From contig CM037476.1 of the NCBI GenBank assembly GCA_021014325.1, positions 15,660,827 through 15,724,826 of the forward strand: a stretch of DNA of 64,000 nt, in the 5' to 3' direction. The DNA comes from Plazaster borealis (lineage: Eukaryota; Echinodermata; Asteroidea; Forcipulatida; Labidiasteridae). Made by a program: the position numbers and the translations under genes. Positions within the stretch are counted from its first letter, which is position 1; every line of letters starts with the position of its first letter. The notes beneath the pieces were generated by a model. The model saw only the letters and a list, made by a program, of their open reading frames with translations. It searched no databases and was not told the origin of the DNA. Below, piece by piece: positions 15,374 through 60,916 of the stretch.

Positions 15374-16874
15374 ATGGGCAGCCTGATGTACGTTAGCTGC
15401 GTGTTGCTAATGACGACTGCGCCACTAACTGACTCGTACACGCTAAAACCTACTACGACCAGCGTGGACGTCTGTCTCGGTGAAAAGTTACATCTATCTT
15501 GTGGTGTCAGATTTGGACCTGGCAAAGATATACGGTCTCTCTCCGAGGTGGGTTGGAACCGTGGTGAGGGTTCTTACGGTAGGATTAACGTGACTGCCTG
15601 TAAGCCCGAGTCCACGTGTACCGAATCAACAACTGACGATCGTGGAGTTTTGCAATATTACTTCAATAAAAATGCTAGCAATGTTGCATCGTTGACACTG
15701 ACTATTAGTAACAGCACACTGAAGGACAGCGTCACATTTTCTTGCTTTGCTCTCAATAAGACCGGTGTCCAGACTTCTGAGAACATATCTGCAATCGTCC
15801 ACAGTCTTCCCAATAAAGCATCTTATCCGAATTGCTCGATAAAGACATGCTCCTCTGAAAATGCCGACAACGCCTGTACTTTATCGTGCATGGCCGAGAT
15901 AACCCAGCCAAGGGTGTCCTTAGAGTGGATCGTCTCTGGGACCAACTCGACCGAAGTTAGACTTTCCAATAACACCGAGGTAATTGGGAATCATGTCGTG
16001 CTACTTTATAACACAACGGAGCGATACATTAACACAATAACTTGTCGTTTGTCAAGTGATGAGCTTCCATGTTTGAATTTGAAAAGCTGCTCAATTGAAC
16101 CGGCCATCTGTTCTGAAGAATGTCCGCCTGGGGAATTTACAAGCGTGCCCTCGCCAGTTTTCACGCGGGCGTCTGGGGATCAAAGCCCCACTGGTTTGTC
16201 TCTCGTCATGATCATTGTCATTGCAGCCGCCGGCGCTAAAATCGTCATCGTTCTCCTGCTTATTCTAGTGTGCTTTGTTCGCTCCAAGGGCAGCAAAATG
16301 AAGCGAACCAAAATGGAAGGGACGACGGCCACTTCTACGACGACTGCTTTAACAAGACGCCAGCAAAACGCCTTTGAAGATGTGGACATCTACACTATGC
16401 CAGATTGCGAGCAAGCGTCACATCATACACCCGTCGAACTTGAACATCTGCCGGGTGGGAAAGCTGGACCACCCGGTGCCCCCTCCCTGGCATATGAGGT
16501 GGTTTCCGAGGCAGTCGATGATGATGACAACCAAGTTGTGGTGAAGACACCGAGTCAGACAGCACCAGTCTACGAAGTGCTAAAACAAGACGAGATGGAT
16601 AGAGCAACAGACAACGAAGGACCTACGAGTGGCGGAAGCGAGGTTGTGGTAAAGACACCGAGTCAGACTGCACCAGCCTACGAAGTGCTAGAACAAGACG
16701 AGATAGATACAGCAACAGACAACGAAGGACCTACGAGTGGAGGAGGCGAGGTTGTGGTAAAGACACCGAGTCAGACTGCACCAGCCTACGAAGTGCTGGA
16801 ACCAGACAAGGCTAAGATACCGAGGAGTTACGAAGAAGCTACGTATGAAGAATGCGATGTCCATGCACACCAAG
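15374..16874 (+). CDS. Receptor A, exon 1: two-Ig transmembrane receptor with repeated tyrosine tail
   Basis: ATG 15374 follows an A-rich stretch and opens a signal peptide (residues 1-21). Ig domain 1 has Cys43 and Cys124 with Trp61, plus an extra CX5C (Cys76, Cys82). Ig domain 2 has LSC, LEW and a later TC. A Pro/Ser/Gly stalk leads to a transmembrane helix at about 274-302, then KGSKMKRTK. The tail carries IYTMP (Tyr340), LAYEVV (Tyr373, fits the ITIM pattern), then three 36-residue repeats with AP[VA]YEVL (Tyr400, 436, 472), then SYEEATYEE. Read straight on, the frame ends nine codons later at 16891. CAAG|GTAAGG at 16871-16880 is a strong donor in phase 1, and exon 2 (18953-19116) continues in frame. 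It is the most diverged member of the array. A surface signalling role is inferred. Confidence 0.85.
16535..16812 (+). repeat. Coding 108-bp tandem repeat in receptor A tail
   Basis: GTTGTGGT[GA]AAGACACCGA begins at 16535, 16643 and 16751, an exact 108-bp (36-codon) period. Two units are complete and a third is truncated after its tyrosine motif. Units are nearly identical, implying recent expansion. Confidence 0.95.
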
Positions 16875-17282
16875 GTAAGGAAGCACCGTAACTACTGACA
16901 TTACGTCATCAATCTCAATTAGGAGATACTCATATTTTTTGTCACATTCTCCTTGGATAATATAAAAGTGAGGCTCTTGCAGTTTACTCACTGCATGCAT
17001 CAGAGAAAATACGAAAAAGGGATGAAAGTTAAACAATATTATCAATACCACGTTATTCCTGACTTTAATGTAACTCTGCGCGTAGCTCGTTCATTTAACC
17101 AAGCAAGAATCATTTGCAAGCGATATTGTCCAGAAAAAACCAGTATGGTTGCCATTTAGCAATGTACGCTTTACAAACCCTTGTGTACGGGGAATAAGAC
17201 CATGCAGTCGTGACTGACTCATAAATAAGGTGTCCAGGGTGCACCGATCTCCCTTATAGTTTATACTGGGTGCTTCAACAAC

Positions 17283-17676
17283 TTAAAGGCATGGTACACG
17301 TTTGGTATTAATGACTCTGAAAATGAATGGCAATAAAAACTTACTTGGTAAGAAGTATAGCAACTTTGGATAGTATAATGCATTTTGAGAAACTTTTCAC
17401 TTCGAAGTACTGCGGTTATGGAAAAATATATCACTTTTTATCCCCCGAAAATTGAATCTGAGAAGTTACGCGTAACGCTTCTCAGAGTGTGTATTCCAAT
17501 GCAGATTATTCTTCCTGTGTGGACATCACCGCTCCAGATTTTCGGCAATATCTCAAAAACGCTACCACCTTTTGAAATGAAATTTTCACAGGTTAGTTTT
17601 ATGGTATACATCTACAACTATATAGGTTTGAAACGAACAATAGGCTCCAATTACCAAACGTGTACGATGCCTTTAA
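17283..17676. mobile_element. MITE family 2, copy a (in receptor A intron)
   Basis: It ends like family 1 (TTAAAGGCATGGTACACGTTTGGTA and TACCAAACGTGTACGATGCCTTTAA) but has a different core: 'gattattcttcctgtgtgga', 'ccgctccagattttcggcaa' and a hairpin around 'gaagttacgcgtaacgcttc'. Copies at 57351-57747 and, partial, 38733-38993. Confidence 0.85.
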
Positions 17677-17677
17677 C

Positions 17678-18795
17678 CCTTTTCACACTACAATTCACAG
17701 GAAATAAAACTCCAGGAAATTCCTTGGGAATGTATAGCTCCACCTCCGCCAATCCCATGTTTGTTTTCACACTTGCAGCAATTTTCCTGTGGAAAACGGC
17801 ACACTCGGCATTTGCTTACCCCGGGGTTATCTCGCTTAACCCTACTCCCAAGCAATGGTAACTAATTCCCCGGGATTTAGTACAATTCAAGTGTGAAAAG
17901 GTTGACCAACTTTTGAAATTTATCTAGCGTGAAAAGGACCATAAGCTGTTTGACTATCATCTATTCCATTTTGTATTATTACTCCATATACCTTAGCCCT
18001 TCACAGCATGGTGACTTTTACATGCATCTCTTCTGAAGATCATATTGTTTTAAAATTTTAACCGAAACTTGTTTTGTTTTTTAAATTTTTGTCAAATGGT
18101 TTTTTAAACAACACACACTTGGATCATTTACTACAAGTAAAAACTCCACTGTTTCGCAATAAGGATAAAATGGGTCAAACTGACCAAGAAATGGGTCAAA
18201 ATGACGCAGAATTCGAGTTAAAATCCCAGTTATTTTTTACCACCTTCCGGGTTAGCCTGACCCGGGGGCCCTCCTGGTACCCCGGAATCCGCGTCAATTC
18301 TGACCCGGGAGTTTTTAGGGTGCAAAATCCCGGGAAATAGCTATACTCCGGCTTGGGACCATTTTTTGGAGGAGGGTTAAATGAGATAACAGCGGGGTTA
18401 GCATTTGGGGAAAATTGCGCTGCTTAACGGCAAGCAGATTTTTTCGTGCTAACTATAGCAGAACAATTTGCTTAAGCGTAAGCGTATTTCACAGGTTAGC
18501 AATAAACTTGGGCGGCCAGCTTGCGCGTTCACCATGGATTTGCCTTGTTACGTCATTCATGTTCATACAGCAAGCACCGGAAGGTTAGCATGCCTTTTGG
18601 TGTGCTCACGGTTAGCAGCGATACGAAATGGAAACTCGCGCCGTAATCACAAAATCAGCCGTTTAGCAGCTCTATGAAATTAGACCCTGGTGTGCATTTT
18701 GACCAGGAAAACTGCATCAAGGGTGGGGAAAAAAGGTGGGGAAATTTCCTAGGGTTTTATGTCACGGGAATTGTTTCTGTAGTGTGAAAATGGGG
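17678..18795. mobile_element. Non-autonomous DNA element (in receptor A intron)
   Basis: CCTTTTCACACTACA at the left is inverted at the right as TGTAGTGTGAAAATGG. Nested inside are a TGACCC-palindrome element (about 18165-18340) and a relic of the 'aatttcatagagctgctaa' foldback family (about 18400-18690). No transposase is visible. Confidence 0.6.
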
Positions 18796-18952: not shown

Positions 18953-19116
18953 TAGAAAAGGAGACGTTTGCGACCGAGGACCATAAAGGTAAAGCCGAGG
19001 AGGGTCCAAACAAAGGGGCGAGGTCCCCCAGGTCATTCATCCAAGATTCGGAGGAGGGAAAATTGATTGAGAATATCTGGTACGTGCCTTACAAGGAAAC
19101 GCGGATGACTGAATGA
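18953..19116 (+). CDS. Receptor A, exon 2 (true C terminus)
   Basis: The acceptor 'ttttaattccag' ends at 18952. Joined in phase 1 to exon 1, the frame runs to TGA 19114-19116. It includes FATEDHKGKAEEG and ends SEEGKLIENIWYVPYKETR plus three residues. The EEG-x-LIENI-x-Y block matches the second exons of B, C and E, which is the main evidence that this exon is real. It adds two tyrosines (WYVPY). Confidence 0.85.
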
Positions 19117-25647: not shown

Positions 25648-27228
25648 ATGGCAAACTACCTCCCACCGTTCCCATCCTTCGAGTACGAATCAGACAAAAC
25701 CAACGTGGCCATCCGTTGGGATAAATGGGTGAAACGCCTGGAGAATTTATTTGTTGCCATGGACATCACGAATGGGGAGAGACAGCGAGCACTCTTACTT
25801 CACTACGCCGGCGAACAAGTACATGAAATCTACGAGGCAGAGAAGCAGACAGACACTGATGACACAAGCGACAACTACGTCGACACTAAGACAGTACTAG
25901 ACAAATATTTTCGGCCAAAGAAGAACACGCAAATGGAGATTTACACCTTCAGATCTTGCAAGCAAAAGGAAAGACAGACGCTGGATGAATATGTGACGGA
26001 ATTGCGAACACTATCCAAGACATGTGAGTTCACATCTACCGATAAGGAAATCCTCACACAAATCATACAGCACTGCACCTCCAACCGACTACGCCGTAGG
26101 GCTCTTCGGGAACCGGACAAGACCCTCACACAAATCATTGACATCGGTCGCACACTTGAGATGGCTGACACACAGGCCTCTGCTATGGAGCGCGAGACCG
26201 TCCATGCAGTGAAGCCAAAGTACAACAACAACAACGGAAAACGACCCCAAGCCAGAAATACTAACAATACCAGTGGCCCTACACGCTCGACACAGCACAA
26301 CCCAAAAGCTACGCAACAACCGGGTAAGCTCTGTATTTATTGTGGTGGTAGCTACCCCCACAGCGGTTCATGCCCAGCACAGGGGCAAACTTGTAACTAT
26401 TGTGGTAAACCAAATCACTTCCAGCGGGCCTGCATCAAACGCAAGAAAGACAAGGCCATCCATAACATACAAGAGCATGATGACCTAGCACAAAACACTT
26501 GTGCACAACAGTCAGACTCCAGTGGAGACGAGTACAGCTATATGGTGCATGCCAAACAACATACATTGTACACACTGTCACTGCCCACTGCCCCTGTCAA
26601 AGTGAACAACCACGACGTCCAACTTTTGCTTGACACGGGGTCTACTGTGAACATTCTCGACCAACGCACATACGCAAATGTGGGTAGTCCACCCATCAAA
26701 CGCCACAAACAGTCAAAGGTTCATGCTTACGGTGAGGATAATCCAATACACATACTCGGTGAGTGCATCCTTACAGTGGAAACAGCATCCTTGATACAGA
26801 CTCACCGATTCTTGATCGCGCAAGGCAATCACGGTTCTCTGCTTGGCTACGAGACAGCAACCAAGCTCAAACTTATCCACGTTGTACACACCGCAACATA
26901 CAAAGACAAGTGCCGGGAGAAATATCCTGGGCTTTTCCATGACATAGGCAAGTTGAAAGATACACAAGTGAAACTCCATGTGGACAAAACAGTGAAACCC
27001 AAGGCAATTACTAACCGCCGTACACCCTTTCACCTCAGAACAAAGGTGGAAACAGAGCTCAAACGCCTTGAACAGCAAGACATCATCGAACATGTACTTG
27101 GGGAACCAACCCCCTGGGTATCCCCAATCGTAACGCCCCCAAGAAAGACGGCTCAATACGCCTCTGTGTTGACATGCGAGAACCCAACAAAGCCATTATG
27201 CGTGAACGCCACAGCACGCCAACAGTAA
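25648..27228 (+). CDS. gag: Gag-protease frame, running into the start of reverse transcriptase
   Basis: ATG 25648, 526 codons. The N-terminal ~200 residues are a retrotransposon Gag-like region. Residues about 228-262 hold two zinc-knuckle motifs: an irregular CIYC..H..C and a classical CNYCGKPNHFQRAC (CX2CX4HX4C). The aspartic protease active site is LLLDTGSTVNIL at about 326-337. The last ~60 residues enter the reverse-transcriptase fingers (TPWVSPIV) and then lose the frame in a run of five C at 27136-27140. Conserved reverse-transcriptase coding resumes in the next frame at 27141. The break lies inside the domain rather than at a gag-pol junction, so a one-base loss or sequencing error fits better than programmed frameshifting. 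Confidence 0.92.
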   Translation: MANYLPPFPSFEYESDKTNVAIRWDKWVKRLENLFVAMDITNGERQRALLLHYAGEQVHEIYEAEKQTDTDDTSDNYVDTKTVLDKYFRPKKNTQMEIYTFRSCKQKERQTLDEYVTELRTLSKTCEFTSTDKEILTQIIQHCTSNRLRRRALREPDKTLTQIIDIGRTLEMADTQASAMERETVHAVKPKYNNNNGKRPQARNTNNTSGPTRSTQHNPKATQQPGKLCIYCGGSYPHSGSCPAQGQTCNYCGKPNHFQRACIKRKKDKAIHNIQEHDDLAQNTCAQQSDSSGDEYSYMVHAKQHTLYTLSLPTAPVKVNNHDVQLLLDTGSTVNILDQRTYANVGSPPIKRHKQSKVHAYGEDNPIHILGECILTVETASLIQTHRFLIAQGNHGSLLGYETATKLKLIHVVHTATYKDKCREKYPGLFHDIGKLKDTQVKLHVDKTVKPKAITNRRTPFHLRTKVETELKRLEQQDIIEHVLGEPTPWVSPIVTPPRKTAQYASVLTCENPTKPLCVNATARQQ

Positions 27229-29732
27229 ACGAACTGATCCATGATCTCAATGGTGCATCGGTTTTCAGCAAGCTTGATCTTCGATCAGGTTACCACCAAC
27301 TTGAACTCGAACCAAGTTCGCGATACATTACTACGTTCCACACACACATGGGGCTCTATCGCTATAAACGCATGAGTTTTGGAATCTCCTCAGCGAGTGA
27401 AATCTTCCAAGAGAACATTCGCAACGTCATCTCCGGCATCGCGGGAGCCCGAAATATCAGTGACGACATCATCTGTTTTGGAGCAGGTCCCAACGCGCAA
27501 CGCGACCATGACGCAGCACTAGAGGCAACGCTCACACGTCTCCATGACCACGGCCTCACAGTGAATTGGGACAAATGTGAGTTCAACTCACACACTATAA
27601 AGTTCTTCGGCCTTGTATTCAGCCCGAAAGGCGTATCACCAGACCCAGAGAAAGTGGACGCCATACGCAACACACCACCACCGCAGACTGCACAAGCGTT
27701 ACGCAGCTTCCTCGGAATGACCAACTACAGCTCACGTTTCATCCGCAACTATGCCACAATCACAGAGCCGTTGAGACGACTCACGAAAAACAATATGCCA
27801 TGGGTTTGGTCTCAAGAACAACAGGACGCCTTCAAAACACTCAAGAACGCCCTGTCTGAAGACGCGAGCATCGCTTACTTCGACATACGCAAAGACATTG
27901 AAATCGCAGTGGATGCTAGCCCTGTTGGCCTAGGGGCCATACTGACACAGGACGGACGCGTTGTAGCTTACGCGAGCCGTGCCTTGACTCCCGTCGAATC
28001 CCGATACAGTCAAACAGAACGCGAAGCCCTTGCTATTGTATGGGCGTGTGAACACTATGACATGTATGTTCGAGGAACACCACACTTCGTAGTCACCACT
28101 GATCACAAACCCCTCGTGAACATATGGCAGAAGCCACACCCGCCGCTACGCATCGAACGGTGGGGTCTCCGACTACAACCCTACAAACTCACAGTCAAGT
28201 ACAGTCCCGGACACGCAAATCCAGCAGACTACTTATCGCGTCACCCGCCTGCCAACTCAAAGAACACTTCACGCGAACAGAAAATCGCGGAGCAATATGT
28301 CAACTTTGTTACAACAACATCAGTGCCTCGTGCAATGAACATCAACGACATCCAGACAGCGACTTTACATGATCCAACCCTGATGAAAGCCATTGACCTC
28401 GTATGCACAGGCCGCTGGTTCGAGATCGCAAAGATCACTGACCCCGCTATTAACATGAACGAACTTCGTCAGTACCACAACAGCAAGGATGAACTTACAT
28501 GCCATGTAAATAACATTCTACTACGCAACGACAAGATTGTTATTCCACAATCACTACGTGACCTGGCAGTCTCTCTCGCACATGAAGGTCACCAAGGCAT
28601 GGCACGAACAAAAGCTATGATACGATCAAAGGTCTGGTTTCCAGGAATCAATGAGAGAGTCGAACAGACAATACACAAATGCCTTGCATGTCAATCCGTC
28701 TACAGCAAACCAGGGCCCTTTGAGCCACTTCGCATGTCAGATTTGCCACCAGGAGCATGGCAAAATCTGAGCATGGACTTCTGTGGACCGCTACCAACAG
28801 GCGAATACCTCATGGTCATCATGGACGAGTACTCCAGGTACCCAAACGTTGAAATTGTGAAATCCGTGTCCGCAAACACAGTTATACCTGTCTTGGACAA
28901 AGTACTGTCAACGTTCGGCTGTTGCAAAGTAATCAAATCCGACAATGGCAGCCCATTCAACTCGCACGCCTTCGCGAAATTCACAGAACACAGCGGTTTC
29001 AAACATCGCCGCATCACGCCTCACTGGCCACGGGCCAACGCACAGGCTGAGGCATTCAATAAACCGCTGATGAAACTTGTTCGTACTGCTCATCTTGAAC
29101 ACAAATCTTGGAGGCAGGAGCTCCATAAATACCTTCGGCAGTATCGCGCCACACCACACCCATCCACTGGGGCCACGCCATACCAACTAATGTTTGGACG
29201 CGAGCCACGCACTCGACTCCCACAGATCGACCACAACAATCCATCCACATTGGATCGTCAAGCTCGAGCAAATGATGAACAGGCCAAATCCAAGCAGAAA
29301 CGCTACGCCGACATTCGTTTGAATGCCCGACAAAACGACATCATGGTCGGTGACACTGTCCTTGTAAAACATGACACCAAACCGTCCAAACTCTCCACAC
29401 CATTTGACCCCCAGCCATACAGTGTCACCGCCAGGAAAGGCAGTATGATCACCGCCTCTGCGAATGGCCACAACATCACTCGGAACTCCTCACGTTTTAA
29501 GGGCATCCCCTCGGACTCCAACGACAGCTACCAACGCGATTACATTGAAGATGAAGAGGAAAAGGATTATACTCCACCCAGCACCCAAACCACAGAAGCA
29601 ACACCTACTTCATTGCCACATACCTTGCCAACACAAACTACTACTCAACCACCGCACACTCGACCAACTCGCATTCGCAAAACCCCAAATATCTTGAGGA
29701 CTATGTGGTCAAATAGACTGATCCACAGCTAA
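27141..29732 (+). CDS. pol: Pol: reverse transcriptase, RNase H, integrase
   Basis: Conserved coding is readable from 27141 in the frame whose first in-frame ATG is 27168. Reverse transcriptase: FSKLDLRSGYHQ (about 27264), FGISSA, and the catalytic ISDDII (about 27460). RNase H: IAVDASPVGLGAIL (about 27905) and TDHKPL. Integrase zinc finger H..H..CLAC (about 28590-28690). Integrase core Asp in SMDFCGPL (about 28771), Asp in KSDNGSPF (about 28936) and Glu in AQAEAF (about 29041), so all three acidic residues are present. A C-terminal region with a GPY/F-like fold precedes a Thr/Pro-rich end. Apart from the break at 27136-27140 shared with the gag frame, no stop interrupts it. Confidence 0.93.
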   Translation, partial: KKDGSIRLCVDMREPNKAIMRERHSTPTVNELIHDLNGASVFSKLDLRSGYHQLELEPSSRYITTFHTHMGLYRYKRMSFGISSASEIFQENIRNVISGIAGARNISDDIICFGAGPNAQRDHDAALEATLTRLHDHGLTVNWDKCEFNSHTIKFFGLVFSPKGVSPDPEKVDAIRNTPPPQTAQALRSFLGMTNYSSRFIRNYATITEPLRRLTKNNMPWVWSQEQQDAFKTLKNALSEDASIAYFDIRKDIEIAVDASPVGLGAILTQDGRVVAYASRALTPVESRYSQTEREALAIVWACEHYDMYVRGTPHFVVTTDHKPLVNIWQKPHPPLRIERWGLRLQPYKLTVKYSPGHANPADYLSRHPPANSKNTSREQKIAEQYVNFVTTTSVPRAMNINDIQTATLHDPTLMKAIDLVCTGRWFEIAKITDPAINMNELRQYHNSKDELTCHVNNILLRNDKIVIPQSLRDLAVSLAHEGHQGMARTKAMIRSKVWFPGINERVEQTIHKCLACQSVYSKPGPFEPLRMSDLPPGAWQNLSMDFCGPLPTGEYLMVIMDEYSRYPNVEIVKSVSANTVIPVLDKVLSTFGCCKVIKSDNGSPFNSHAFAKFTEHSGFKHRRITPHWPRANAQAEAFNKPLMKLVRTAHLEHKSWRQELHKYLRQYRATPHPSTGATPYQLMFGREPRTRLPQIDHNNPSTLDRQARANDEQAKSKQKRYADIRLNARQNDIMVGDTVLVKHDTKPSKLSTPFDPQPYSVTARKGSMITASANGHNITRNSSRFKGIPSDSNDSYQRDYIEDEEEKDYTPPSTQTTEATPTSLPHTLPTQTTTQPPHTRPTRIRKTPNILRTMWSNRLIHS

Positions 29733-30767: not shown

Positions 30768-31424
30768 GTTAAAAAATTGGTCGAGAATTTCGATTGGCTG
30801 TTTCCGATTATTGTTATTTATAGGTAAATCTTCTGGTCCATAATTGGGTGTTTATATTTTAATCCCAAGGAAAGTTTATAAATAAATCCAAACAGACTAG
30901 GTTTTAATTATCAAAGGGTAAAGGTTAAATCTGTAAAGATTGAAACATTTTAATCCACTGGGATTAATTTAATTAATCCTCCATAGACTAATTTTTTTAA
31001 ATCTTTTGAAAGATTCATTTTAAATCCACGCAGATTGGTCCCTAACCACACTCCTTGAAAGATTTAAAATTTAATCCTGTGGATTTAAATTTAAATCCTT
31101 GTAATTTAGAGTGTACCTATTTACACATTAGATGAAATTGAATGGTTGACCAGCTCTTGCTGCTGGCTTTTACACAAATGAATGAGTCTTGCGGCCTAGT
31201 GAAATTGAATAATCTTATTTGACCAGTGAATGCTAAAGTTATGAAATTGAAGTAGGCCCTACTCCTTTTGACTGTTGAATGCTGATTCAACGGGGCATTC
31301 ATTTTCAAACGAAATAGAATGAGCCGGGAGTTAAAATGAATGGATTTTTGTTGAAATTGGCCGGGAAAACCTATAATAAAATAATATTAGTGGCTTATTC
31401 TATAGCTTATATATCCGTCACTCA

Positions 31425-31533
31425 GTGACAATCGAGGTGACCAGTGACGTAGTGACAGTTCGAGAAGGTGAACAGCTCAATTTATCATGAAGCATAACAT
31501 TAGATGGTCAAGGTATTGTGGAAGTTCGATGGG
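31425..31533 (+). pseudogene. Ig domain 1 fragment of the receptor family
   Basis: Reads TIEVTSDVVTVREGEQLNLS, a stop, then SITLDGQGIVEVRW before losing homology. It corresponds to residues about 22-57 of receptor B. The codon of the first Ig cysteine is TGA instead of TGC. It has no signal peptide and lies 370 bp upstream of B. Confidence 0.9.
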
Positions 31534-31793: not shown

Positions 31794-33144
31794 ATGGACT
31801 CCATTGTGTTTGTCCTAATACTGTTGGTGACAGCTGTAACACGGACAACGATGCTGACAATCGAGGTGACCAGTGACGTAGTGACAGTTCGTGAAGGTGA
31901 ACAGCTTAATTTATCATGCAGCATAACATTAGATGGTCAAGGTATAAGTGAAGTTCGATGGTATAGAGGCTCGGACCAGATACCGTATGGTTCCATTGAT
32001 GTAACAAACTGTGGTATTTTCCCTCTATGTCCAGAGGTAAACACTACAGACAACCGTGGAGTTGTACAATACACAGGAGGTTTTCTCAATGATGCAACAT
32101 TGACACTAGTGATCGATCATAGTTTAGCAAGCGACAACACAAGTTTTTCATGTGGTGTAGGGAAAAAGACTGGTAACTTCCAAAGTGCTGAGAAATTAAT
32201 TAGCGTGATTGTTCAGCATCTTCCAGATCCAACTTATCCCATGTGTTTAAGATCCAACTCATCTACCCTGACAGACATTCTCTCCTTGTCTTGCTGGGCT
32301 GAACTAACCCTGCCCGTGGTTTCTTTGGAATGGACAGTGGAAGGAATTAGTTCCGATCGAATATCATTTTCCAATAAAACCGAGATCGATGAGTACCGAG
32401 TTGAAAACAACCTGTTCCTTAAGGAAACAAGGGTTTCTTCTGGCAGCTTTGTCTTCACTTGTCATATGACAAGTTCGGCTTTTCCTCATACCAGGAGGAA
32501 CTGTTCGATTGGACCCATTCTCACCACCGGTGACCAAACTACTGAAGGTATTCTGTCGGACGCAACAACAACAACAACAACAACAACCCCGTTTGCCCAA
32601 GATGGAACACCCGCCACACCCACTACCGATGGCATCACCACCCGAAGTGATCCCCCACTGAACACTATAGTCATCGCATCAATTGCGTCAGGCAGTGTTG
32701 TCATCATCGTCATACTCTTGATCATCATCGCGTGTCTCGTCTCCTCAAGACGAAAACGAAGAAGGGCAACACCGAAAAACCCGCAAGATCTCAGCATCCG
32801 ACTATCCGTTGCAATCGCACAACCAAGATCAAATACCAGCCTCTACGCCAATCACAGCTACACGACCATCAGTTCCAACAACCAACAACCGGCGAGTTTC
32901 GATCCTCGACCGGGGGACACAGCAGCGGATTCCCCGTCCCCGCTGTACGCGGAAGTTCCATCGGACAAAAAAGTATCGTACGATAAATCAACAGAGGTTT
33001 TTTCGTACGCGGTGTCGAAGGGAGATCCACGCCACAAGAGTACGGCACTTGAAGAAGATCAACCCAACATGAGGCATCAAAGTCAGGATCCACCGGAGTA
33101 TTATTCGCTTGAACCTGAACCAGGCACCCGACAAATGACCCATG
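31794..33144 (+). CDS. Receptor B, exon 1: two-Ig transmembrane receptor
   Basis: ATG 31794 starts a signal peptide (1-20). Ig 1: Cys42, Trp56, Cys120, extra CX5C at 73-79 (NCGIFPLC), then TTDNRGVVQY. Ig 2: Cys167, Trp180, Cys223 with an extra Cys pair 151/237. Thr-rich stalk about 258-265 from an ACA repeat. Transmembrane about 292-315, then RRKRRR. Tail tyrosines: YANH (351, Grb2-type YxN), YTTI (356), YAEV (385), YDKS (396), YAVS (405), YYSL (436/437). Donor CATG|GTAATT ends the exon at 33144 in phase 1. Unspliced, the frame would continue to 33287. Surface receptor signalling through SH2 proteins is inferred. Confidence 0.88.
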
Positions 33145-33924: not shown

Positions 33925-34073
33925 GACGAGGGCCCAAGACGATCGAGGACCAGTGCGTGTACGCCGAGGCGGGTCAAGGCCAAGGGGTGAGGTCATTGCG
34001 ATCCTCCAAACTGGACTCCGAAGAGGGCATGCTGATAGACAACATCCTGTATGTATCAGCTGACAAGGAATAA
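33925..34073 (+). CDS. Receptor B, exon 2 (C terminus)
   Basis: Acceptor 'aaaaacttttcacag' ends at 33924. The phase-1 join gives G then RGPKTIEDQCVYAEAG, ending DSEEGMLIDNILYVSADKE and TAA 34071-34073. It carries a further tyrosine (VYAEA) and the shared EEG-x-LIDNILY block. The intron is 780 bp. Confidence 0.88.
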
Positions 34074-40494: not shown

Positions 40495-41268
40495 ATGGAC
40501 TCCATGGTGTTTGTCGTACTACATTTTGTGACAACTTTTACCACTATAAAGACATTGACATTCGAGGTGACGAGTGACGTGACAGTTCGAGAAGGTGAAC
40601 AGCTCAATCTATCATGTAGCATAACATTAGATGGTCGTGGCATATTGGAAGTTCGATGGTACCGAGACACGAACCAGGCAGTGTATGGTTCCATTGATGT
40701 TAGACACTGTGGTATTTCCTCTCTATGTCCTGTGGTAAACACTACAGACAATCGTGGAGTTGTACAATACAAAAGAAGTTTAAGTAGGCCTGAACACCCA
40801 ACATTGACACTGGTGATCGATCATACTTTAGCACGCGACAACACGAGTTTTTCCTGTGGTGTATACACGGCGAGCAATACCTTCCAAAGTTCTGACAGTA
40901 TATATGTGATTGTTCAGCATCTTCCAGATCCAACTTGTCCCATGTGTTTACTAAGATCCAACTCATCTACCCTGTCAGACATTCTCTCCTTATCTTGCTG
41001 GGCTGAAAAAACTCTGCCCGTGGTTTCTCTGGAATGGACAGTGGAAGGAAACAGAACCGATCAAATATCAATTTCCAATAAAACCGAGATCGATGAGAAC
41101 CGAGTTGAAAACAACCTGTTCCTTAAGGAAACCAGGGTTTCTTCTGGCAGCTTAGTCTTCACTTGTCATATGACAAGTTCGGGTTTTCCTCATACCAGAA
41201 GAAACTGTTCGATTGGACCCATTCTCATCACCGGTGACCAAACTACTGAAGGTATTCTGTCGGACGCG

Positions 41269-41299
<31 letters not shown>

Positions 41300-41869
41300 C
41301 CCCGTTTGCCCACGATGGAACACCCAGCACACCCACTACCGATGACATCACCACCCGAAGTGATCCCCCACTGAACGATATAGTCATCGCATCAATTGCG
41401 TCAGGCAGTGTTGTCATCATCGTCATACTCTTGATCATCATCGCGTGTCTCGTCTCCTCAAGACGAAAACGAAGCAGGGCAGCAAAGAAAGACCCAAAAG
41501 ACCTCAGCATCCGCTTGTCCGTTGCCATCACTTCATCCGGATCAAATACCAACCTCTTCCACGAGGCGCATGTCTACGCTAATCAAATCGATCCGGCCAT
41601 CAGTTCCAACAACCGACCGGGCCGTTACGAACTTCCACCGCCGGACAAAACTGCGTCTCCCCCGTCCCCGCTGTACGCGGCAGTTTCATCGGTTAAAAAG
41701 GTTCCACACGTACAAGTTGGAGATCATTCATACGCGATGGTGTCCAAGCGAGATAAACGACGTGGCGGTACACCGCTTGAAGAAGATCAACCCAACATGG
41801 GGTATGGAAGTCAACATCCACCGGAGTATCATACGCTTGATGAACCAGACGACCGTCAGTTGACCCAAG
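40495..41869 (+). CDS. Receptor C, exon 1
   Basis: ATG 40495 (MDSMVFVVLHFVTTF) is chosen because D and E share it at the same place; an upstream non-ATG extension is not conserved. Ig 1 has LSC, VRWYR, SFSC and the CX5C HCGISSLC. Ig 2 has LSC, LEW, FTC with the extra Cys pair. Eleven-Thr stalk from (ACA)n, transmembrane VIASIASGSVVIIVILLIII, then RRKRSR. Tail: HVYANQ (YxN), PLYAAV, HSYAMV, MGYGSQ, PEYHTL. The exon ends at CAAG|GTAAAC in phase 1; read through, the frame would stop at 41904. Nearly the same protein as D and E, differing mainly in Ig 1. Confidence 0.9.
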
Positions 41870-42774: not shown

Positions 42775-42929
42775 GACAAGCGCCCAAGTCGACCGAGGGC
42801 CAGGTTGAGTACGACGTGCCCAGTCCAGGCCAAGGGCTGAGGTCACGGGGGTCATCCCAGCTGGACGAAGATGAGGGGAAGCTCATTGACAATATCCTGT
42901 ATACAACGACTGGCAATGAATACAATTAA
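42775..42929 (+). CDS. Receptor C, exon 2 (C terminus)
   Basis: Acceptor 'tttttttggaacag'. The phase-1 join reads GQAPKSTEGQVEYDVPSPG, later DEDEGKLIDNILYTTTGNEY and N, with TAA at 42927-42929. It adds YDVP (Crk-type YxxP) and NILY tyrosines. Almost identical to 52327-52481. Confidence 0.9.
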
Positions 42930-47974: not shown

Positions 47975-49322
47975 ATGGACTCCATGGTGTTTGTCGTACT
48001 ACTTTTTGTGACAACTTTTAACACTATAAAGACAGTTACATTGGATGTGACGAGTGACGTAGTGACAGTTAGAGAAGGTGAACAGCTCAATTTAGCATGC
48101 AGCATAACATTAGATGGTCAAGGTATTGCGGAAGTTCGATGGTACCGAGACACGAACCAGACACTGTATGGTTCCATTGATGTTACTAATTGTGGTATTT
48201 TCCCTCTCTGTCCTGTGGTAAACACTACAGACAATCGTGGAGTTGTACAATACACAAGAGGTTTTCAGAATGATGACACGTTGACACTAGTAATTGATCA
48301 TAGTTTAGTACGCGACAACACCAGTTTTTATTGTGGTGTAATCACGCAGACCAATAACTTCCAAAGTTCTGACAATATATATGTGATTGTTCAGCATCTT
48401 CCAGATCCAACTTATCCCATGTGTTTAAGATCCAACTCATCTACCCTGACAGACGTTCTCTCCTTGTCCTGCTGGGCTGAAAAAACCCTGCCCGTGGTTT
48501 CTCTGGAATGGACGGTGGAAGGAATTAGTTCCGATCAAATATCATTTTTCAATACAACCGAGATTAATGAGTACCGAGTTGAAAACAACCTGTTCCTTAA
48601 GGAAACAAGGGTTTCTTCTGGCAGCTTTGTCTTCACTTGTCATATGACAAGTTCGGCTTTTCCTCATACCAGGAGGAACTGTTCGATTGGACCCATTCTC
48701 ACCACCGGTGACCAAACTACTGAAGGTATTCTGTCGGACGCAACCACAACAACAACCCTGTTTGCCCAAGATGGAACACCCACCACACCCACTGCCGATA
48801 ACATCACCACCCGAAGTGATCCCCCACTGAACACTATAGTCATCGCATCAATTGCGTCAGGCAGTGTCGTCATCATCGTCATACTCTTGATCATCATCGC
48901 GTGTCTCGTCTCTTCAAGACGAAAACGAAGCAGGGCAGCAAAGAAAGACCCAAAAGACCTCAGCATCCGCTTGTCCGTTGCCATCACTTCACCCGGATCA
49001 AATACCAACCTCTTCCACGAGGCGCATGTCTACGCTAATCAAAGCGACCCGGCCATTAGTTCCAACAACCGACCGGGCCGTTTCGAACTTCCACTGCCGG
49101 ACAAAACTGCATCTCCCCCGTCCCCGCTGTACGCGGCAGTTTCATCGGTTAAAAATTTTCCACACGTACAAGTTGGAGATAATTCATACGCGATGGTGTC
49201 CAAGCGAGATAAACGACGTGGCGGTACACCACTTGAAGATCAACCCAACATGGGGTATGGAAGTCAACATCCACCGGAGTATCATACGCTTGATGAACCA
49301 GACGACCGTCAGTTGACCCAAG
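47975..49322 (+). CDS. Receptor D, exon 1 (terminal exon missing)
   Basis: ATG 47975 (MDSMVFVVLLFVTTFNT). Same architecture as C: CX5C is NCGIFPLC, Ig 1 closing Cys is in SFYCGV, and the Thr stalk is short (five). Tail HVYANQ, PLYAAV, NSYAMV, PEYHTL. The donor CAAG|GTAAAC at 49319-49328 is intact, but the next receptor starts 750 bp on with no matching second exon before it. Either the transcript splices over receptor E to 52327, or it reads through to the stop at 49355-49357, giving a tail ended GKPSLFVIPRL. Probably expressed, since it keeps the full C-like 5' flank. Confidence 0.85.
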
Positions 49323-49926
49323 GTAAACCCTCACTGTTTGTTATTCCTCGTTTGTGAGAGAAAAAATGAATCATATCCAAATAGTTCTAACGCAAAATAT
49401 GGTAATGGCTTCATGCTTTAACCCTATTGGCAGTGGCCTTATGCTTCAACCCTATTGGCAGCCTCTTTCTCGAAGGGTAAAATGACAACACAACACACGT
49501 TTGTCAACCCTGTGGACTTCTCTTTGTTCTTGGTTCTTGGTTGGGGAGACCTCCAAAATACTCCAATTGGAGTTTTATCTGGAGGTGTTCTCCCATTGTT
49601 TGGACTACAGGGACATCCCTATTGGTTTCGTACAATAAAGAAGCGAGGACGTCCTCGCTCTGGGTCTTTCAAAACACTCGGAGCCCTTTTGTTAAAGTTA
49701 AGTTCGACGGGTAGACACCCCACATGTTTGTCGACCGTGTAAATCAAGGACTTCTTATTGTTCTCCAAAATGTTTTGGACTAAGTCTTTTGGAGATGTCC
49801 TTTTTGGTTTTGTACACGAAAATGAAGCGAGGTCGTCCTCGCTCTGTCAAAAAAAACGAGTCCCTTTTGTTTAAGTCCTAAGTTTCATCACTTTGACACC
49901 CCATACACTTGTAAACAGTGACATAG

Positions 49927-49952
49927 ATTCAATTCAATTCAATTCAATTCAA
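49927..49952. repeat. (ATTCA)5 microsatellite
   Basis: Pure AATTC repeat near the D/E junction, absent from the corresponding place in C. Confidence 0.9.
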
Positions 49953-50074
49953 ATACACATTTAGATTGTTTTATGAATTGATCGAAGAAGTCAAAAGCTA
50001 TGATCAATATTTCCATTACTGTCTTTTATATGTTGTATACTTATGACACTACCATCATTTGGCACTTTTGGAAG

Positions 50075-51428
50075 ATGGACTCCATGGTGTTTGTCGTACT
50101 ACTTTTTGTGACAACTTTTACCACTATAAAGACAGTGACATTGGATGTGACGAGTGACGTAGTGACAGTTCGAGAAGGTGAACAGCTCAATTTATTATGC
50201 AGCATAACATTAGATGGTATTGGTATGAGGGAAGTTCGATGGTACCGAGGCTCGGACCAGACACCGTATGGTTCCATTGATGTTACACGCTGTGGTTTTG
50301 TCTTTATGTGTCCTGAGGTAAACACCACAGACAATCGTGGAGTTGTACAATACACAAGAAGTTTAAGTAATGATGCAACACTGACACTAGTGATCGATAG
50401 TACTTTAGCATGCGACAACACAAATTTTTCCTGTGGTTTATATATGGCGAGCAATAACTTCCCAAGATCTAACAATATACACGTGATTGTTCAGCATCTC
50501 CCAGATCCAACTTATCCCATGTGTTTAAGATCCAACTCATCTACCCTGACAGACATTCTTTCATTGTCTTGCTGGGCTGAAAAAACCCTGCCCGTGGTTT
50601 CTCTGGAATGGACAGTGGAAGGAATTAGTTCCGATCAAATATCATTTTCCAATAAAACCGAGATTGATGAGTACCGAGTTGAAAACAACCTGTTCCTTAA
50701 GGAAACAAGGGTTTCTTCTGGCAGCTTAGTCTTCACTTGTCATATGACAAGTTGGGCGTTTCCTCATACCAGGAGGAACTGTTCGATTGGACCCATTCTC
50801 ATCCCCGATGACCAAACTACTGAAGGTATATTTCCATACGCAACAACAACAACAACAACCCTGTTTGCCCAAGATGGAACACCCACCACACCCACTGCCG
50901 ATAACATCACCACCCGAAGTGATCCCCCACTGAACACTATAGTCATCACATCAATTGCATCAGGAAGTGTCGTCATCATCGTCATACTCTTGATCATCAT
51001 CGCGTGTCTCGTCTCCTCAAGACGAAAACGAAGCAGGGCAGCAAAGAAAGACCCGCAAGATCTCGGCATCCGCTTGTCCGTTGCCATCACTTCACCCGGA
51101 TCAAATACCAACCTCTTCCACGAGGCGCATGTCTACGCTAATCAAAGCGACCTGGCCATCAGTTCAAACAACCGACCGGGCCGTTTCGAACTTCCACCGG
51201 GGGACAAAACTGCATCTCCCCCGTCCCCGCTGTACGCGGCAGTTTCATCGGTTAAAAAGGTTCCCCACGTACAAGTTGGCGATGATTCTTACGAAATGGT
51301 GACCAAGCAAGATAAACGACGTGGCGGTACACCACTTGAGGAAGGTCAACCCAACATGGGGTATGGAAGTCAGCATCCACCGGAGTATCATACGCTTGAT
51401 GAACCAGACGACCGTCAGTTGACCCAAG
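50075..51428 (+). CDS. Receptor E, exon 1
   Basis: ATG 50075 (MDSMVFVVLLFVTTFTT). Ig 1 is the most changed among C-E: GIGMREVRWYRGSDQTPYGS, CX5C RCGFVFMC, NFSCGLY. Ig 2 and the transmembrane helix are close to D. Thr stalk of six. Tail HVYANQ, PLYAAV, DSYEMV, PEYHTL. Donor CAAG|GTAAAC in phase 1. Only about 35 bp upstream of the ATG is homologous to C and D, so an own promoter is doubtful; read-through or alternative splicing from D is possible. Confidence 0.87.
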
Positions 51429-52326
51429 GTAAACCCTCACTGTTTGTTATTCCTCGTTTGTGAGAGAAAAAATAAATCATATCAAAATAGTTCTAACGCA
51501 AAGTATGGTAATGGGTTTATGTTTCAACCCTATTGACCGCGTCGTTCTCGAAGGCTATTGACAACACAACACACGTTTGTCAACCCTGTGGACTTCTCTT
51601 TGTTCTTGGTTCTTTGTTCTTGGTTCTTGGTTGGGGAGACCTCCAAAATACTCCAATTATGGTTTTAACTGGAGGTGTTCTCCCATTGTTTTGGACTACA
51701 GGGACGTCCCTATTGGTTTCATACAATAAAGAAGCGAGGACGTCCTCGCTCTGGATCTGTCAAAACACCCGGAGCCCTTTTGATAAAGTAAGGTTCGACG
51801 GGTATACACCCCACATGTTTGTCGACCGTGTACATCGAGGACTTCTTATTGTTCTCCAAAATGTTTTGGACCAAGTTTTTTGGCGATGTCCTCTTTGGTT
51901 TTGTACACGAAAATTAAGCGAGGTCGTCCTCGCTCTGTCAAAACCCCGGGTCTCTTTTGTTTAAGTCCTAAGTTTCATCACTTTGACACCCCCATACACT
52001 TGCCAACAGTGACTTAGATTGTTTTATTAATTGATCGAAGAAGTCAAAAGCTATGATCGATATTGTTGCGGGTGCGGTTTGCCATTACTGTCTTCCAAAA
52101 CCGCAAGGTTGTTATCGACTCAGTAAAATAATATCGTAACGCAAAAAATGTAAACCCCAAACCGGTATTTAATTGCTTCACAGCAATAACAATTGCGGAA
52201 ATGAAAATCTACACCCTCTTTCCGGTTTTAGAAAGAGGGTCATGGATATAGATTCATTTGAGACTTCAGGCATAGCGTTTGAACCCTTAAGTTATGGAAT
52301 TTTTCTCTGTAATTGTTTTGGAACAG

Positions 52327-52481
52327 GACAAGTGTCCAAGTCGACCGAGGGCCAGGTTGAGTACGACGTGCCCCGTCCAGGCCAAGGGCTGAGGTCACAG
52401 GGGTCATCACAGCTGGACGAAGATGAGGGGAAGCTCATTGACAATATCCTGTATACTACGACTGGCAATGAATACAATTAA
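52327..52481 (+). CDS. Receptor E, exon 2 (possibly shared with D)
   Basis: Acceptor 'tgttttggaacag' ends at 52326. Reads GQVSKSTEGQVEYDVPRPG, later DEDEGKLIDNILYTTTGNEY and N, with TAA at 52479-52481. It is the only intact terminal exon downstream of receptor D. Confidence 0.9.
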
Positions 52482-52499: not shown

Positions 52500-52863
52500 A
52501 TTCTAAACATTACCGGGTCAGAATTGACCCGGATTCCGGGTCCTATGAAGCCTGACCCAGAATGGGTCAGGCTTTCCCGGAAACTGGTTAAAAATTGCGT
52601 TTTTAACTTGGATTCTGCGTCAGTTTGACCCATTCCCGGGTCAGAATTAACCCGGATTCCGGGTCCTGAAGCCTGACCCATTTCTGGTTCAGGCTGTCCC
52701 GGAAACTGGTTGAATTTCTTTTTAAAACTCGGATTCTACGTCAGTTTGACCCATTTGTGGGTCATTTTGCCACAGATTCCGGGTCCTAACTGACCCAGAA
52801 ATGGGTCAGGTCCGAGGGGACCTGGACTCCCGCTCAATATTCTGACCCGGCAGCTTTTAGAAT
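52500..52863. mobile_element. TGACCC-palindrome element after receptor E
   Basis: Inverted ends GTACATTCTAAA.. and ..TTTTAGAATGTAC enclose repeated 'gggtcagaattgacccgg' and 'ctgacccatt' words. Same position relative to the stop codon as in C, but with a different internal copy number. Confidence 0.8.
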
Positions 52864-57892: not shown

Positions 57893-58200
57893 GCTAGAAT
57901 GGTTCAATGACTACGTCATCGCTATGACGCTATATTACTTTCAAACAAAACTTGCTTCCATTCTCAAATTTCATTTCTTGAACAGGTTTGCATTAATGTA
58001 GTTCAGTAAATACGAAAACAGAGGTCAATATTGATTGTGTGAATCTGACGTATCGAATACATGCACCATGTTTTGTAGGCCCATAATGTACGGAATATTA
58101 CAACGCATTGCAACTGTGAATCTTATACTGCCATGCTGTGATATCGATGTGGCTTATTATCGACTGTTTGTCATAACTTGAGGATCGATTCATTGGAAAG
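57893..58200 (+). promoter_or_regulatory. Receptor F 5' flank (promoter candidate)
   Basis: About 300 bp upstream of the F ATG, repeated almost intact at 60931-61219. Includes TGACGTAT (58046-58053), a CRE/ATF-like word also found upstream of C (40223) and D (47772), and 'gctgtgatatcgatgtggct'. No TATA box at a convincing position. Confidence 0.5.
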
Positions 58201-58956
58201 ATGAACCACTCCGTGTTTATCTTCGCACTTTTAGCGACATGTTTTAACAGGACAACGACATTGTCATTCGATGTGACCAGTTACGTAGTGACAGTTCGAG
58301 AAGGTGAACAGCTCAGTTTATCATGTAGCATAACATATGGTAAAGATAAAATTGTGGAAGTTCGATGGTACCGAGACACGAACAAGACACTGTATGGTTT
58401 CATTGGTTTTAAAAACTGTGGTATTTCTACTCTATGTCCTGAGGTAAACACTACAGACAATCGTGGAGTTGTACAATGCCTCAATTATGCAACACTGACA
58501 CTAGTGATCGATCATAGTTCAGTTAGCGACAACACAAGTTTTTCATGTGGTGTAGGGAAAAATAATGGTAACTTCCAAAGTGCTGAGAATTCAATTAACG
58601 TGATTGTTCAACATCTTCCAGATCCAACTTATCCCATGTGTTTAAGATCCAACTCATTTACCCTGACAGACATTCCCTCCTTGTCTTGCTGGGCTGAAAT
58701 AACCCTGCCCGTGGTTTCCCTGGAATGGACGGTGGAAGGAAGTAGTTCTGACCAAATATCACTTCCTAATAAAATCGAAATCTTCGGGAACCAAGTTGAA
58801 TTCAACCTGTTTATCAACACGACAGGGGTTCCTTCTGGAAGCTTAGTCTTCACTTGTCCGATCAAATATCATTTTCCAATGAAACCGAGATTGATGAGTA
58901 CCGAGTTGAAAATAACCTGTTCCTTAAGGAAACAAGGGTTTCTTCTGGCAGCTTAG
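58201..58956 (+). CDS. Receptor F, 5' part: frame broken in Ig domain 2
   Basis: ATG 58201, signal peptide MNHSVFIFALLATCF, Ig 1 with CX5C NCGISTLC and SFSCGVGKN, Ig 2 as far as SLVFTC. At 58857-58859 the sequence jumps back to the middle of Ig 2: 58747-58858 and 58857-58966 are two diverged copies of one ~110-bp segment, so the frame shifts. It ends after 33 novel residues at 58954-58956. As it stands it encodes a 251-residue protein with a signal peptide and no transmembrane segment, hence possibly secreted. It may instead be a pseudogene. Confidence 0.7.
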   Translation: MNHSVFIFALLATCFNRTTTLSFDVTSYVVTVREGEQLSLSCSITYGKDKIVEVRWYRDTNKTLYGFIGFKNCGISTLCPEVNTTDNRGVVQCLNYATLTLVIDHSSVSDNTSFSCGVGKNNGNFQSAENSINVIVQHLPDPTYPMCLRSNSFTLTDIPSLSCWAEITLPVVSLEWTVEGSSSDQISLPNKIEIFGNQVEFNLFINTTGVPSGSLVFTCPIKYHFPMKPRLMSTELKITCSLRKQGFLLAA

Positions 58957-59068
58957 TCTTCACTTGTCATATGACAAGTTGGGCGTTTTCCTATGTCCAG
59001 AGAAACTGTTCGATTGGACCCATTCTCATCCACGGTGGCCAAACTACTGCAGGTATTCTGCCGGACGC

Positions 59069-59131
<63 letters not shown>

Positions 59132-59387
59132 CACAACAACAACAACAACACCCATCACACCAACTGCCGATGACATCACCATCCGAAATGATCCGCCACT
59201 GAACAATTACACTGTAGTCATTGACGTAACCGTATCAGCTTGCGTGGTCATCATCATACTCTTGATCATCATAGCTTATCTAGTCTCCTCAAGAAAGAGG
59301 AGACCCAACGACGCAGAACCAAGGGATGGCTTACACCTGTCGCCAGTGAATCAGAACACGACGCCGCATACGTACGAGCGTACGCTG
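58857..59387 (+). pseudogene. Receptor F, middle part: second Ig 2 copy, stalk, transmembrane
   Basis: In the shifted frame: SDQISFSNETEIDEYRVENN, FTCHMTSWAF, then a stalk of about 30 Thr, transmembrane VSACVVIIILLIIIAYLV and SSRKRRP. The tail starts SPVNQNTTPHTYERTLGN and is then interrupted by the hAT element. The second Ig 2 copy looks closer to E than the first does, suggesting recombination between paralogs. Confidence 0.8.
59068..59150 (+). repeat. (ACA)n microsatellite encoding the Thr stalk of F
   Basis: Near-pure CAA/ACA repeat of about 27 units with one TCA interruption. The same position holds 5-11 Thr codons in B-E. Confidence 0.95.
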
Positions 59388-59395
59388 GGAAACAC

Positions 59396-60691
59396 CAGCG
59401 GCGTAGCCACAGAGGGCCTGGGGCACGTGCCCCCACAAATTTCTAGTGCCCCCCCAGGTGCCCCCCCCCCATGAAAAAATTGCAATAGTGCCCACACAAA
59501 AAGAAAGTTAAAAGAATGAAAACAAAACATTACAAAACAAAATACATCTGCTATTTGTAGGCCTTCATTTACAATAAAGTAAAACAAAACTTTAGTCGTA
59601 TTCAAAGCAATTAGCCAATAATTATTGTTTAACTTATGCTGTGGGGATTGTCGCTATCATCACCGGAAGCGCGCGCGCCCACGTGTTGACCAATGCAATG
59701 CAGCGGAATGAACAGTTAGTGTGCATGCCGGAGAGACCAAAAAGTTCTGCTACGCGCACGCGCAACGATGGTCCAAATAAACCAATGTTTTGTACATGAA
59801 CCGTTGGTTATCATTACCAGCGATTACGGCGGCGGCCATATTGCTACCGGAAGGCGAGGATTCTGAAAAACAGTGAGATTTTAACTTTTTTTTGAGGAGT
59901 GGATTTTCTGGACCCGCGCCGAGCTCACTGTGAGAACAAAAAACACGTAGAGCCTAATTTTCGCGAGATCCGGTTTCAAAAGAGAACTCCAGGTGCATTT
60001 AAATGTGAAGGGCAACAAGTTTCTAATAGGATTTTGTACATGGCACTCTATGGGTGCACCCCACTAGTTCCACTCCCATAGCATTCAGCGCAAAAGGCTA
60101 AATATTCAAAAATACACGAAAAATACTTAAAAGTCTCACAGCTTTTTACAGTAAAGGGAAAAGTATTAATTGACTCTTGAACTTTTATTCTCTGCTCAAT
60201 TTAATATGGGGAGTCCCTGGTCCCGTCGAGTTATTCTAGCTCCAAATAAATACACCCCTACACCGGTGTAATTTTCCAAACGTCCGAGCATCAATCTTGA
60301 AAAATGTCCCTACACCGCTCGGCAAATAGGACCATTTTTTCAGGGCCTATGTCATCCAAAATACCTGAAGTTGGAAGTCAACAACCCCCAGGTTACAATT
60401 GGGCAACATTTTTACACTCTACTCCTTTTTGGGGCTCTCAAATCTGTCTAATATAGGATATTTTGAGGGCCTACAAAATATTCATGAGCTCGACGCTCTG
60501 TTTTCTCCATATTTAGTGGGGTGCACCCCTATGAGGTTCGTGGAGACGATAGCGGATCAAACCTCATAGTTCTAGGGCTAGGAGTACATGACCCCACCAC
60601 TGACACACCCATTCTCCCTGGCCCCCCCCCCCACTTGGAAGCAATCCCCCCCCCTGTGCCCCCCACCGAACAATTCCTAGCTACGCCGATG
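59396..60691 (+). mobile_element. Non-autonomous hAT element in receptor F tail
   Basis: 1296 bp. Ends CAGCGGCGTAGCCA.. and ..TAGCTACGCCGATG are inverted repeats with one mismatch in the first 12. An exact 8-bp target duplication GGAAACAC is at 59388-59395 and 60692-60699. 8-bp duplications and CAG-GGCGTAGC ends are hAT hallmarks. No transposase frame; an ORF at its right end merely runs on into the receptor tail. Confidence 0.92.
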
Positions 60692-60699
60692 GGAAACAC

Positions 60700-60916
60700 T
60701 CCAGTGAATCAGAACACGACGCCGCATACGTACGAGCGTACGCTGGGAAACATTGATCAGCAAGACGGAGACAAGTCGACCGGTGAGCAGCCTTCGGCAG
60801 TTGACGCTTTGCCAACACACTACGAGCCAATGCGTGAAGTGCACAGGGATACAGGAGGCAAGACTTTAGCAATCACCAACAAATTAGCTGATTCGCACTA
60901 TTTAGAAGTGATATAA
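60700..60916 (+). pseudogene. Receptor F, 3' part of cytoplasmic tail
   Basis: After the target duplication the frame is the one interrupted at 59395 (element plus duplication is 1304 bp, matching the frame change). It begins with a second copy of the PVNQNTTPHTYERTLGN motif, then HYEPM (YxxM, PI3K-type) and SHYLEV (ITIM-like S-x-Y-x-x-V), ending VI and TAA 60914-60916. There is no EGxLI[DE]NI block, so F differs from A-E in tail design. Confidence 0.75.

Follow-up and report, generated by a model that had tools for sequence, protein, structure and literature searches.

A tandem array of immunoglobulin-superfamily receptor genes with a predicted separate C-terminal exon in the sea star Plazaster borealis

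Among the closest described counterparts of the locus reported here are the mammalian paired receptors of the CEACAM1 and CEACAM3 type (PMC2832619), clustered genes of the immunoglobulin superfamily (IgSF) that carry similar ectodomains on different tails, stay similar through gene conversion and combine the immunoreceptor tyrosine-based activation motif (ITAM) with other tyrosine motifs. Among invertebrates the clustered IgSF genes of the Alr type in Hydractinia, compared here by description only, contain ITAM and inhibitory motifs (ITIM) in candidate allorecognition genes (PMC11999971, PMC12065747), and FcgammaRIIA carries an ITAM in its own chain (PMC6433993). The tails of CED-1 and Yolkless, which have a role in uptake or engulfment, combine YxxPhi (CED-1), dileucine-type and NPxY signals (PMC11228867). 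Allorecognition has been reported in the sea star Patiria pectinifera (PMC9763293), the word “receptor” being absent from that text. We analysed a window of 64,000 nt on contig CM037476.1 of Plazaster borealis (C22:15660827-15724826), which contains a tandem array of receptor genes with two immunoglobulin (Ig) domains, in the context of the genome (560,608,030 bases in 717 contigs). Echinoderms are invertebrate deuterostomes with cellular immunity. According to protein searches the closest named proteins are those of Asterias (P0001-P0005, P0008 and P0009, e.g. LOC117296988, LOC117296274 and LOC117296766), which represent related genes of the same architecture; P0001 and P0003 of A. rubens and P0002 and P0004 of A. 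amurensis are NCBI-named, uncharacterised proteins. No study of the receptor family was found among the listed matches in the open-licence PMC literature, as judged by title and start of the abstract. The array, which comes from a sea star close to Asterias, is ordinary in kind; it is unusual in its exon layout and in the contrast between two tail classes.

As an earlier note on this DNA had stated, genes A to E each encode a signal peptide, two Ig domains, a stalk, a single transmembrane (TM) segment and a tail with tyrosines, based on the open reading frames (ORFs), the Pfam Ig matches and a model of B. Their first exons, all on the + strand, occupy window positions 15374..16874 (A, 67% identical to its Asterias orthologues P0008 and P0009), 31794..33144 (B), 40495..41869 (C), 47975..49322 (D) and 50075..51428 (E). 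Pfam Ig domains exceeded the curated cut-off in C (Ig_3, 31.0/30), D (ig, 23.4/21.8) and the first half of the sixth gene, F (V-set, 33.6/26), and stayed below it in A, B and E (best E-values 4.7e-5, 2.3e-6 and 7.9e-6). The AlphaFold2 model of the coding part of B exon 1 consists of two beta-sandwich domains (predicted local distance difference test by block 77-94 in Ig1 and 63-87 in Ig2) and a helix at residues 289-324 over the TM segment, with stalk and tail at low confidence. The receptors belong to the immunoglobulin superfamily.

In A, B, C and E the reading frame of exon 1 runs past a splice donor, and a short terminal exon is presumably joined to it in vivo. The donor/acceptor pairs proposed earlier (16874/18953, 33144/33925, 41869/42775 and 51428/52327) proved exact, with GT donors at 16875 (A), 33145 (B), 41870 (C) and 51429 (E) and AG acceptors ending at 18952, 33924, 42774 and 52326, respectively. 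All four donors are in phase 1, and the joins are in phase and open, giving proteins of 554 (A), 499 (B), 509 (C) and 502 (E) amino acids that stop 6-10 residues past a conserved block, [DE]EGxLI[DE]NIxY. The terminal exons, likewise on the + strand, lie at 18953..19116 (A, EEGKLIENIWY and then the stop), 33925..34073 (B, EEGMLIDNILY), 42775..42929 (C, VEYDVP and DEGKLIDNILY) and 52327..52481 (E). As a regular expression the block matched four times in the window, always on the + strand and inside a terminal exon, and never in 200 first-order Markov windows used as random control. Homology between B and C in blastn ends four bases past the donor (33148/41873), and the likeness of exon 2 resumes at the protein level (51%). 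The frame was said to continue for a few codons past the donor, which describes A (5 residues) and C, D and E (11) and fails for B (47); by eye, the read-through residues of A, of B and of the C/D/E group bear no resemblance to one another. That single-ORF prediction yields a wrong C terminus was borne out by P0001-P0004, which run through the same splice point into a homologous spliced tail with the terminal block; it is single-ORF prediction alone that overlooks the exon. The locus illustrates how a C-terminal exon can escape such prediction if the frame of exon 1 continues to a stop close by.

Genome searches with tail queries, in which only the best candidates were scored, led from the C tail to C, E, B and a weak match interrupted by a stop, and from the A tail to A and B. 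The weak match (C22:20285423, E 2.15) was taken as chance. No fifth block was detected in 164 kb around the array. A DNA pattern for the block matched 20 places, compared with 26 for its reversed control; three of its places are the exons of B, C and E, and none of the other 17 encodes the whole block upon translation. Two of these 17 (L007 and L057), which are copies of a single repeat, encode EEGKLIEN followed by a stop. As far as these searches reach, the terminal exon is restricted to four places of the array.

Conservation of the exon-2 block in other species, on which the earlier note had made its proposal depend, is found in the homologous tails of P0001-P0004 from two Asterias species. 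The N and the Y of the block are invariant in all eight aligned exon-2 peptides, although these rows are not independent, C and E being nearly the same sequence and the two Asterias species likewise. Since exon 2 is more similar to its orthologue (B to P0001/P0002 67%, C to P0003/P0004 74-76%) than B is to C, a B-type and a C-type tail lineage appear to predate the split from Asterias.

The terminal exon has a composite motif content. Hydrophobic-x-N-x-x-Y occurs in 8/8 exon-2 peptides (shuffle expectation 0.01-0.04 each) and the acidic dileucine [DE]xxxL[LI] in six of them (expectation 0.01-0.07 each); YxxPhi is present in exon 1. In the seven aligned tails of B, C, E and P0001-P0004 all six gapless majority-tyrosine columns (Y[AS]N, LYA[AE]V, SYA or SYE, EY[HY][ST]L, [EV]Y and N[IV]LY, the last two in exon 2) are invariant, compared with 60 of 168 columns overall. 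The fifth tyrosine, which is absent from exon 2 of A, forms YDVP in C and E and YAIP in P0003/P0004; this YxxP, which we take to be of the Crk type, is not found in B and has a shuffle expectation of about 0.7. Acidic dileucine, YxxPhi and FxNPxY are the three classical endocytic signals (PMC2882754), the third being only approximated here. The specificity of phosphotyrosine-binding (PTB) domains is treated in PMC3507883, and CED-1 and Yolkless are discussed together with PTB and AP2 in PMC11228867, according to which CED-1 combines uptake signals with the PTB adaptor CED-6. Given that hydrophobic-x-N-x-x-Y comes straight after the dileucine, and in view of the precedent of CED-1 and CED-6, we regard a cassette for internalisation and adaptor docking as the most likely role of the terminal exon.

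It seems somewhat unlikely that the block is instead solely a phosphotyrosine site for SH2 or PTB signalling and that the dileucine match arose by chance. NxxY in 8/8 peptides compared with dileucine in 6/8, together with the invariance of all six majority-tyrosine columns, speaks for such a site; the dileucine is nevertheless present in all four copies of the window, including the diverged A, at the low expectations given above. The earlier suggestion that the block matters for signalling is plausible, but internalisation or PTB docking fits the block at least as well.

A different tail class follows the two-Ig genes. The array had been described as six receptors ending at 60916, which does not hold: F is frame-shifted, interrupted and has a different tail, D lacks an exon 2 of its own, and one-Ig genes extend the array by about 39 kb past the window, with seven ORF starts (C22:15726359, 15730136, 15733957, 15737962, 15747040, 15751247 and 15761716) and a tail-only fragment near C22:15756809, up to C22:15763422. 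The ITAM YQALEMTNQPPAEYTKL is in frame in four of the seven ORFs; in those starting at 15733957 and 15737962 an intact ITAM tail lies just downstream of the stop, outside the ORF, and the ORF at C22:15761716 has none. Searched against the genome, the ITAM tail was found at nine places, all in the array: six clean, one with a stop and two at about half identity. Each of the six intact F-type tails (four of the window species, P0005 and P0006) contains one ITAM, at a shuffle expectation of 0.00-0.02. When tested with YxxL/I x6-12 YxxL/I, P0005 and P0006 matched, P0007 matched at two places and A-E did not match. The spacing of nine fits the consensus YxxL/I(6-12)YxxL (PMC6433993) but not the stricter 6-8 of PMC2832619. 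The ITIM pattern [ISVL]xYxx[LIV] was absent from B, C, D and E and occurred once in A (LAYEVV, expectation 0.22), 2, 1, 0 and 1 times in P0001-P0004, and once (SGYQAL) in each intact ITAM tail. The single-exon tails at C22:15726359-15763422 (L039-L042) end in the ITAM, ahead of which stands TYYEPV, resembling an immunoreceptor tyrosine-based switch motif; by eye, P0007 and the last one-Ig gene (C22:15761716) might likewise read through a donor. Using C, A and one one-Ig protein, tblastn detected nothing further in the flanks C22:15610827-15660826 and 15764827-15804826. A genome search with gene E gave 43 matches, 27 of them outside the array on C7, C8, C12, C17, C18, C19, C20 and C520. Fifteen loci of about 3.5-4 kb (14 of these 27 and the last array gene) contain long open frames, a TM segment and tyrosine-bearing tails, and no block was found in their fetched flanks. 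Clusters of Ig-receptor-like ORFs outside the array, on C12, C7, C8, C18 and C520 (L023-L038), have tyrosine-bearing tails that end differently (YASIMSK, YQNINK and YAVLNEYS).

The segments of the two-Ig genes differ in divergence. Between B and C, synonymous changes number 9/133 in Ig2-stalk-TM compared with 28/93 in the tail (p=5.6e-6) and 21/80 in Ig1 (p=1.6e-4); between B and D they amount to 9/131 in Ig2-stalk-TM, the contrasts of B with C or D ranging from p=1.6e-4 to 5.6e-6. Since synonymous changes are few there and many in Ig1 and the tail, we read Ig2-TM as putatively homogenised. Ig2 identity is 87-96% among B-E compared with 73-79% to the Asterias proteins presumed orthologous; the tails and exon 2, in contrast, group by orthology. 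In A. amurensis, P0005 joins an intact two-Ig ectodomain to an ITAM tail; it shares 88-90% of Ig2 and 23-25% of the exon-1 tail with P0004/P0003 (P0005/P0004: Ig1 69%, Ig2 88%, tail 23%), a pattern resembling paired ectodomains that is seen intact only in this A. amurensis protein. Among ten sequences the differences within Ig1 concentrate in the CC', DE and FG loops (0.61 compared with 0.28 in the rest of Ig1), loops that were chosen post hoc. For the introns of B and C, a global alignment gave 88% across 551 columns, alongside 583 columns of gaps; it was discarded as a gap artefact, no such match being given by blastn.

Taken together, we lean towards a tandem array organised like the paired receptors of vertebrates, with a variable Ig1, a homogenised Ig2-TM and differing tails, the terminal exon acting as an AP-2/PTB uptake cassette and the sister genes carrying ITAM. 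A single coding exon contains the ectodomain, the TM segment and most of the tail. The short terminal exon of A, B, C and E, which D probably uses through E, would add the composite motif; the exons of B, C and E would also contribute a further conserved tyrosine. Ig1 may bind a variable ligand, the YxxV/L and YAN tyrosines of exon 1 could recruit SH2 proteins when phosphorylated, and the terminal exon could drive AP-2- and PTB-adaptor-dependent internalisation or engulfment as in CED-1 or Yolkless, while activation by way of a Syk-type kinase would be the output of the sister ITAM genes. SH2 exons occur in the genome (26 matches), as do an SHP2-like gene with two SH2 exons and PTB exons (two partial matches, one with a stop); Syk, Grb2, PLCgamma and Cbl have been reported in eggs of Patiria miniata (PMC11593052). 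Splicing in vivo, expression, ligands, adaptors, signalling direction and an immune role are inferred from sequence, and short sequence motifs can mislead.

Several observations weigh against this reading. The PTB-like site lacks the usual proline, and the motif counts of the A-E tails do not rise far above those of shuffles (YxN 0-1 compared with 0.3-0.5, YxxP 0-2 with 0.7-0.8, YxxV/L 3-4 with 1.3-1.4). The composite motif is not strictly kept, because both A orthologues found (P0008 and P0009) end in VSFPQGPR without the block, and the B orthologues P0001/P0002 keep NILY and have lost EGxLI, and with it the dileucine. The claim that the block is kept even in the diverged A consequently applies to the window species and not to Asterias. 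Conservation is established for Asterias, and a search with the tail only (one candidate, no match at E<=10) gave none wider, a weak negative given that the full-length searches had returned tails. The contrast in synonymous changes is weaker between B and E (Ig1 p=0.069, tail p=0.0014) and absent between C and E (p=0.55 and 0.45), and the Asterias paralogues are no more similar in Ig2 (P0001-P0003 81%, P0002-P0004 77%) than the orthologues across genera, P0005 with P0003/P0004 (88-90%) being the exception. F, the two-Ig gene that would be the partner of B-E, is broken in the window species. Positive selection on Ig1 is unsupported, since the loops as a whole exceed the strands modestly (10 of 120 circular shifts reach this excess) and dN/dS in Ig1 ranges from 0.34 to 1.12. 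The tails of P0008 and P0009 differ by one residue, a difference with which the tandem acceptor CAG/TAG (NAGNAG) of the A terminal exon would be consistent. The tail of A contains 2.5 copies of a 108-base repeat (16535-16807) with one YEVL tyrosine motif per unit, and by eye its Asterias orthologues seem to have more units of this type.

D and E look like the product of an internal tandem duplication of exon 1 within one gene, which is the simplest history. According to blastn the homology of D to C stops in the intron and then jumps to about 35 bases before the ATG of E, placing the putative breakpoint at 50012..50040, and E lacks the upstream DNA common to C and D. D is therefore predicted to splice from its donor (49322/49323) to the terminal exon of E, which D and E would share (intron 49323-52326), and probably does so; the joined product has 500 amino acids in silico. 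For the same reason the expression of E itself is in doubt. The introns of C and E are more alike (95.8%) than their first exons (92.1%). It appears rather unlikely that D is a separate, truncated gene ending at its exon-1 stop and E an independent one: both ORFs are intact and D has an AATAAA at 49634, but the junction leaves D without an acceptor and exon 2 and E without the 5' flank of the C/D type.

It is more doubtful still that short forms ending in exon 1 exist as well, regulated polyadenylation within the intron giving a surface-stable receptor without the cassette and splicing a long, internalised one. AATAAA occurs between the exon-1 stop and exon 2 three times in A, once in C and twice in E (one at 51471, eight bases past the stop), and once in D before 50000. 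However, this signal is common in AT-rich DNA and absent from the B intron, the read-through residues differ between genes as described above, and P0001-P0004 without exception represent the long form, although further isoforms could exist.

The fold offers no family assignment; a search with the B model listed Ig-containing chains, and a match to Kirrel/SYG-1 tied with many of them. Adhesion or wiring receptors of the Kirrel/SYG-1 type, with variation serving self-recognition or reproduction instead of immunity, are improbable, as T-cell receptor and Fab chains reach equal or higher Z at a larger root-mean-square deviation, so that the fold does not discriminate, and as several features are unlike Kirrel genes: the tandem array, the homogenised Ig2, the ITAM sister tails and the range of matches, which in two protein searches, both limited in sensitivity, comprised only unnamed proteins and proteins named from Asterias.

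Compared with the known systems, the array favoured here differs from CEACAM, whose tails are spread over several exons and oppose ITIM to ITAM. In the sea star almost everything falls within a single exon, and the tails that lack an ITAM carry a cassette of endocytic/PTB type, B-E being devoid of a strict ITIM. In contrast to CED-1 and Yolkless, whose ectodomains are not known to be related to those of the sea-star receptors, the block has NxxY without proline and its sites are adjacent in one small exon. The likeness to FcgammaRIIA concerns the sister tail class outside the window and not A-E. A more far-reaching interpretation, which we consider unlikely, would be a gene-converted paired-receptor locus in which the same type of Ig ectodomain is wired either to ITAM or to a removable one-exon internalisation/PTB cassette, two ectodomain exons (D and E) using one tail exon, as a candidate for coelomocyte recognition, allorecognition included. 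Within a small region the array combines ITAM tails, tails of endocytic/PTB type and Ig1 domains with variable loops, and it provides exon coordinates and short motifs for testing.

The broken gene F (58201..60916, + strand) has a tail related to the one-Ig class from which the ITAM is lost, whereas its intact relative in A. amurensis, P0005, retains it; Asterias differs from the window species in this respect as well as in the A orthologues. Its two-Ig ectodomain contains an out-of-frame partial duplication of 112 bases (58747-58858/58857-58968), and an insert of about 1.3 kb lies between 52-base repeats (59343-59394 and 60701-60752). A direct repeat of about 295 bases (57900-58193 and 60930-61219, 88.6%) immediately flanks F on both sides. 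Between A and B (25648-29732), gag-pol-like ORFs with CCHC, reverse transcriptase and integrase signatures, recognised by eye, represent a retrotransposon, and a 110-base partial extra copy of the Ig1 start with one stop lies just upstream of B (31423-31532). Tandem repeats were detected at 861-1241 (period 68), 42961-43059 (period 23) and 52508-52810 (period 121); the latter two directly follow exon 2 of C and E, respectively, and both contain CCGGGTCAGAATT.

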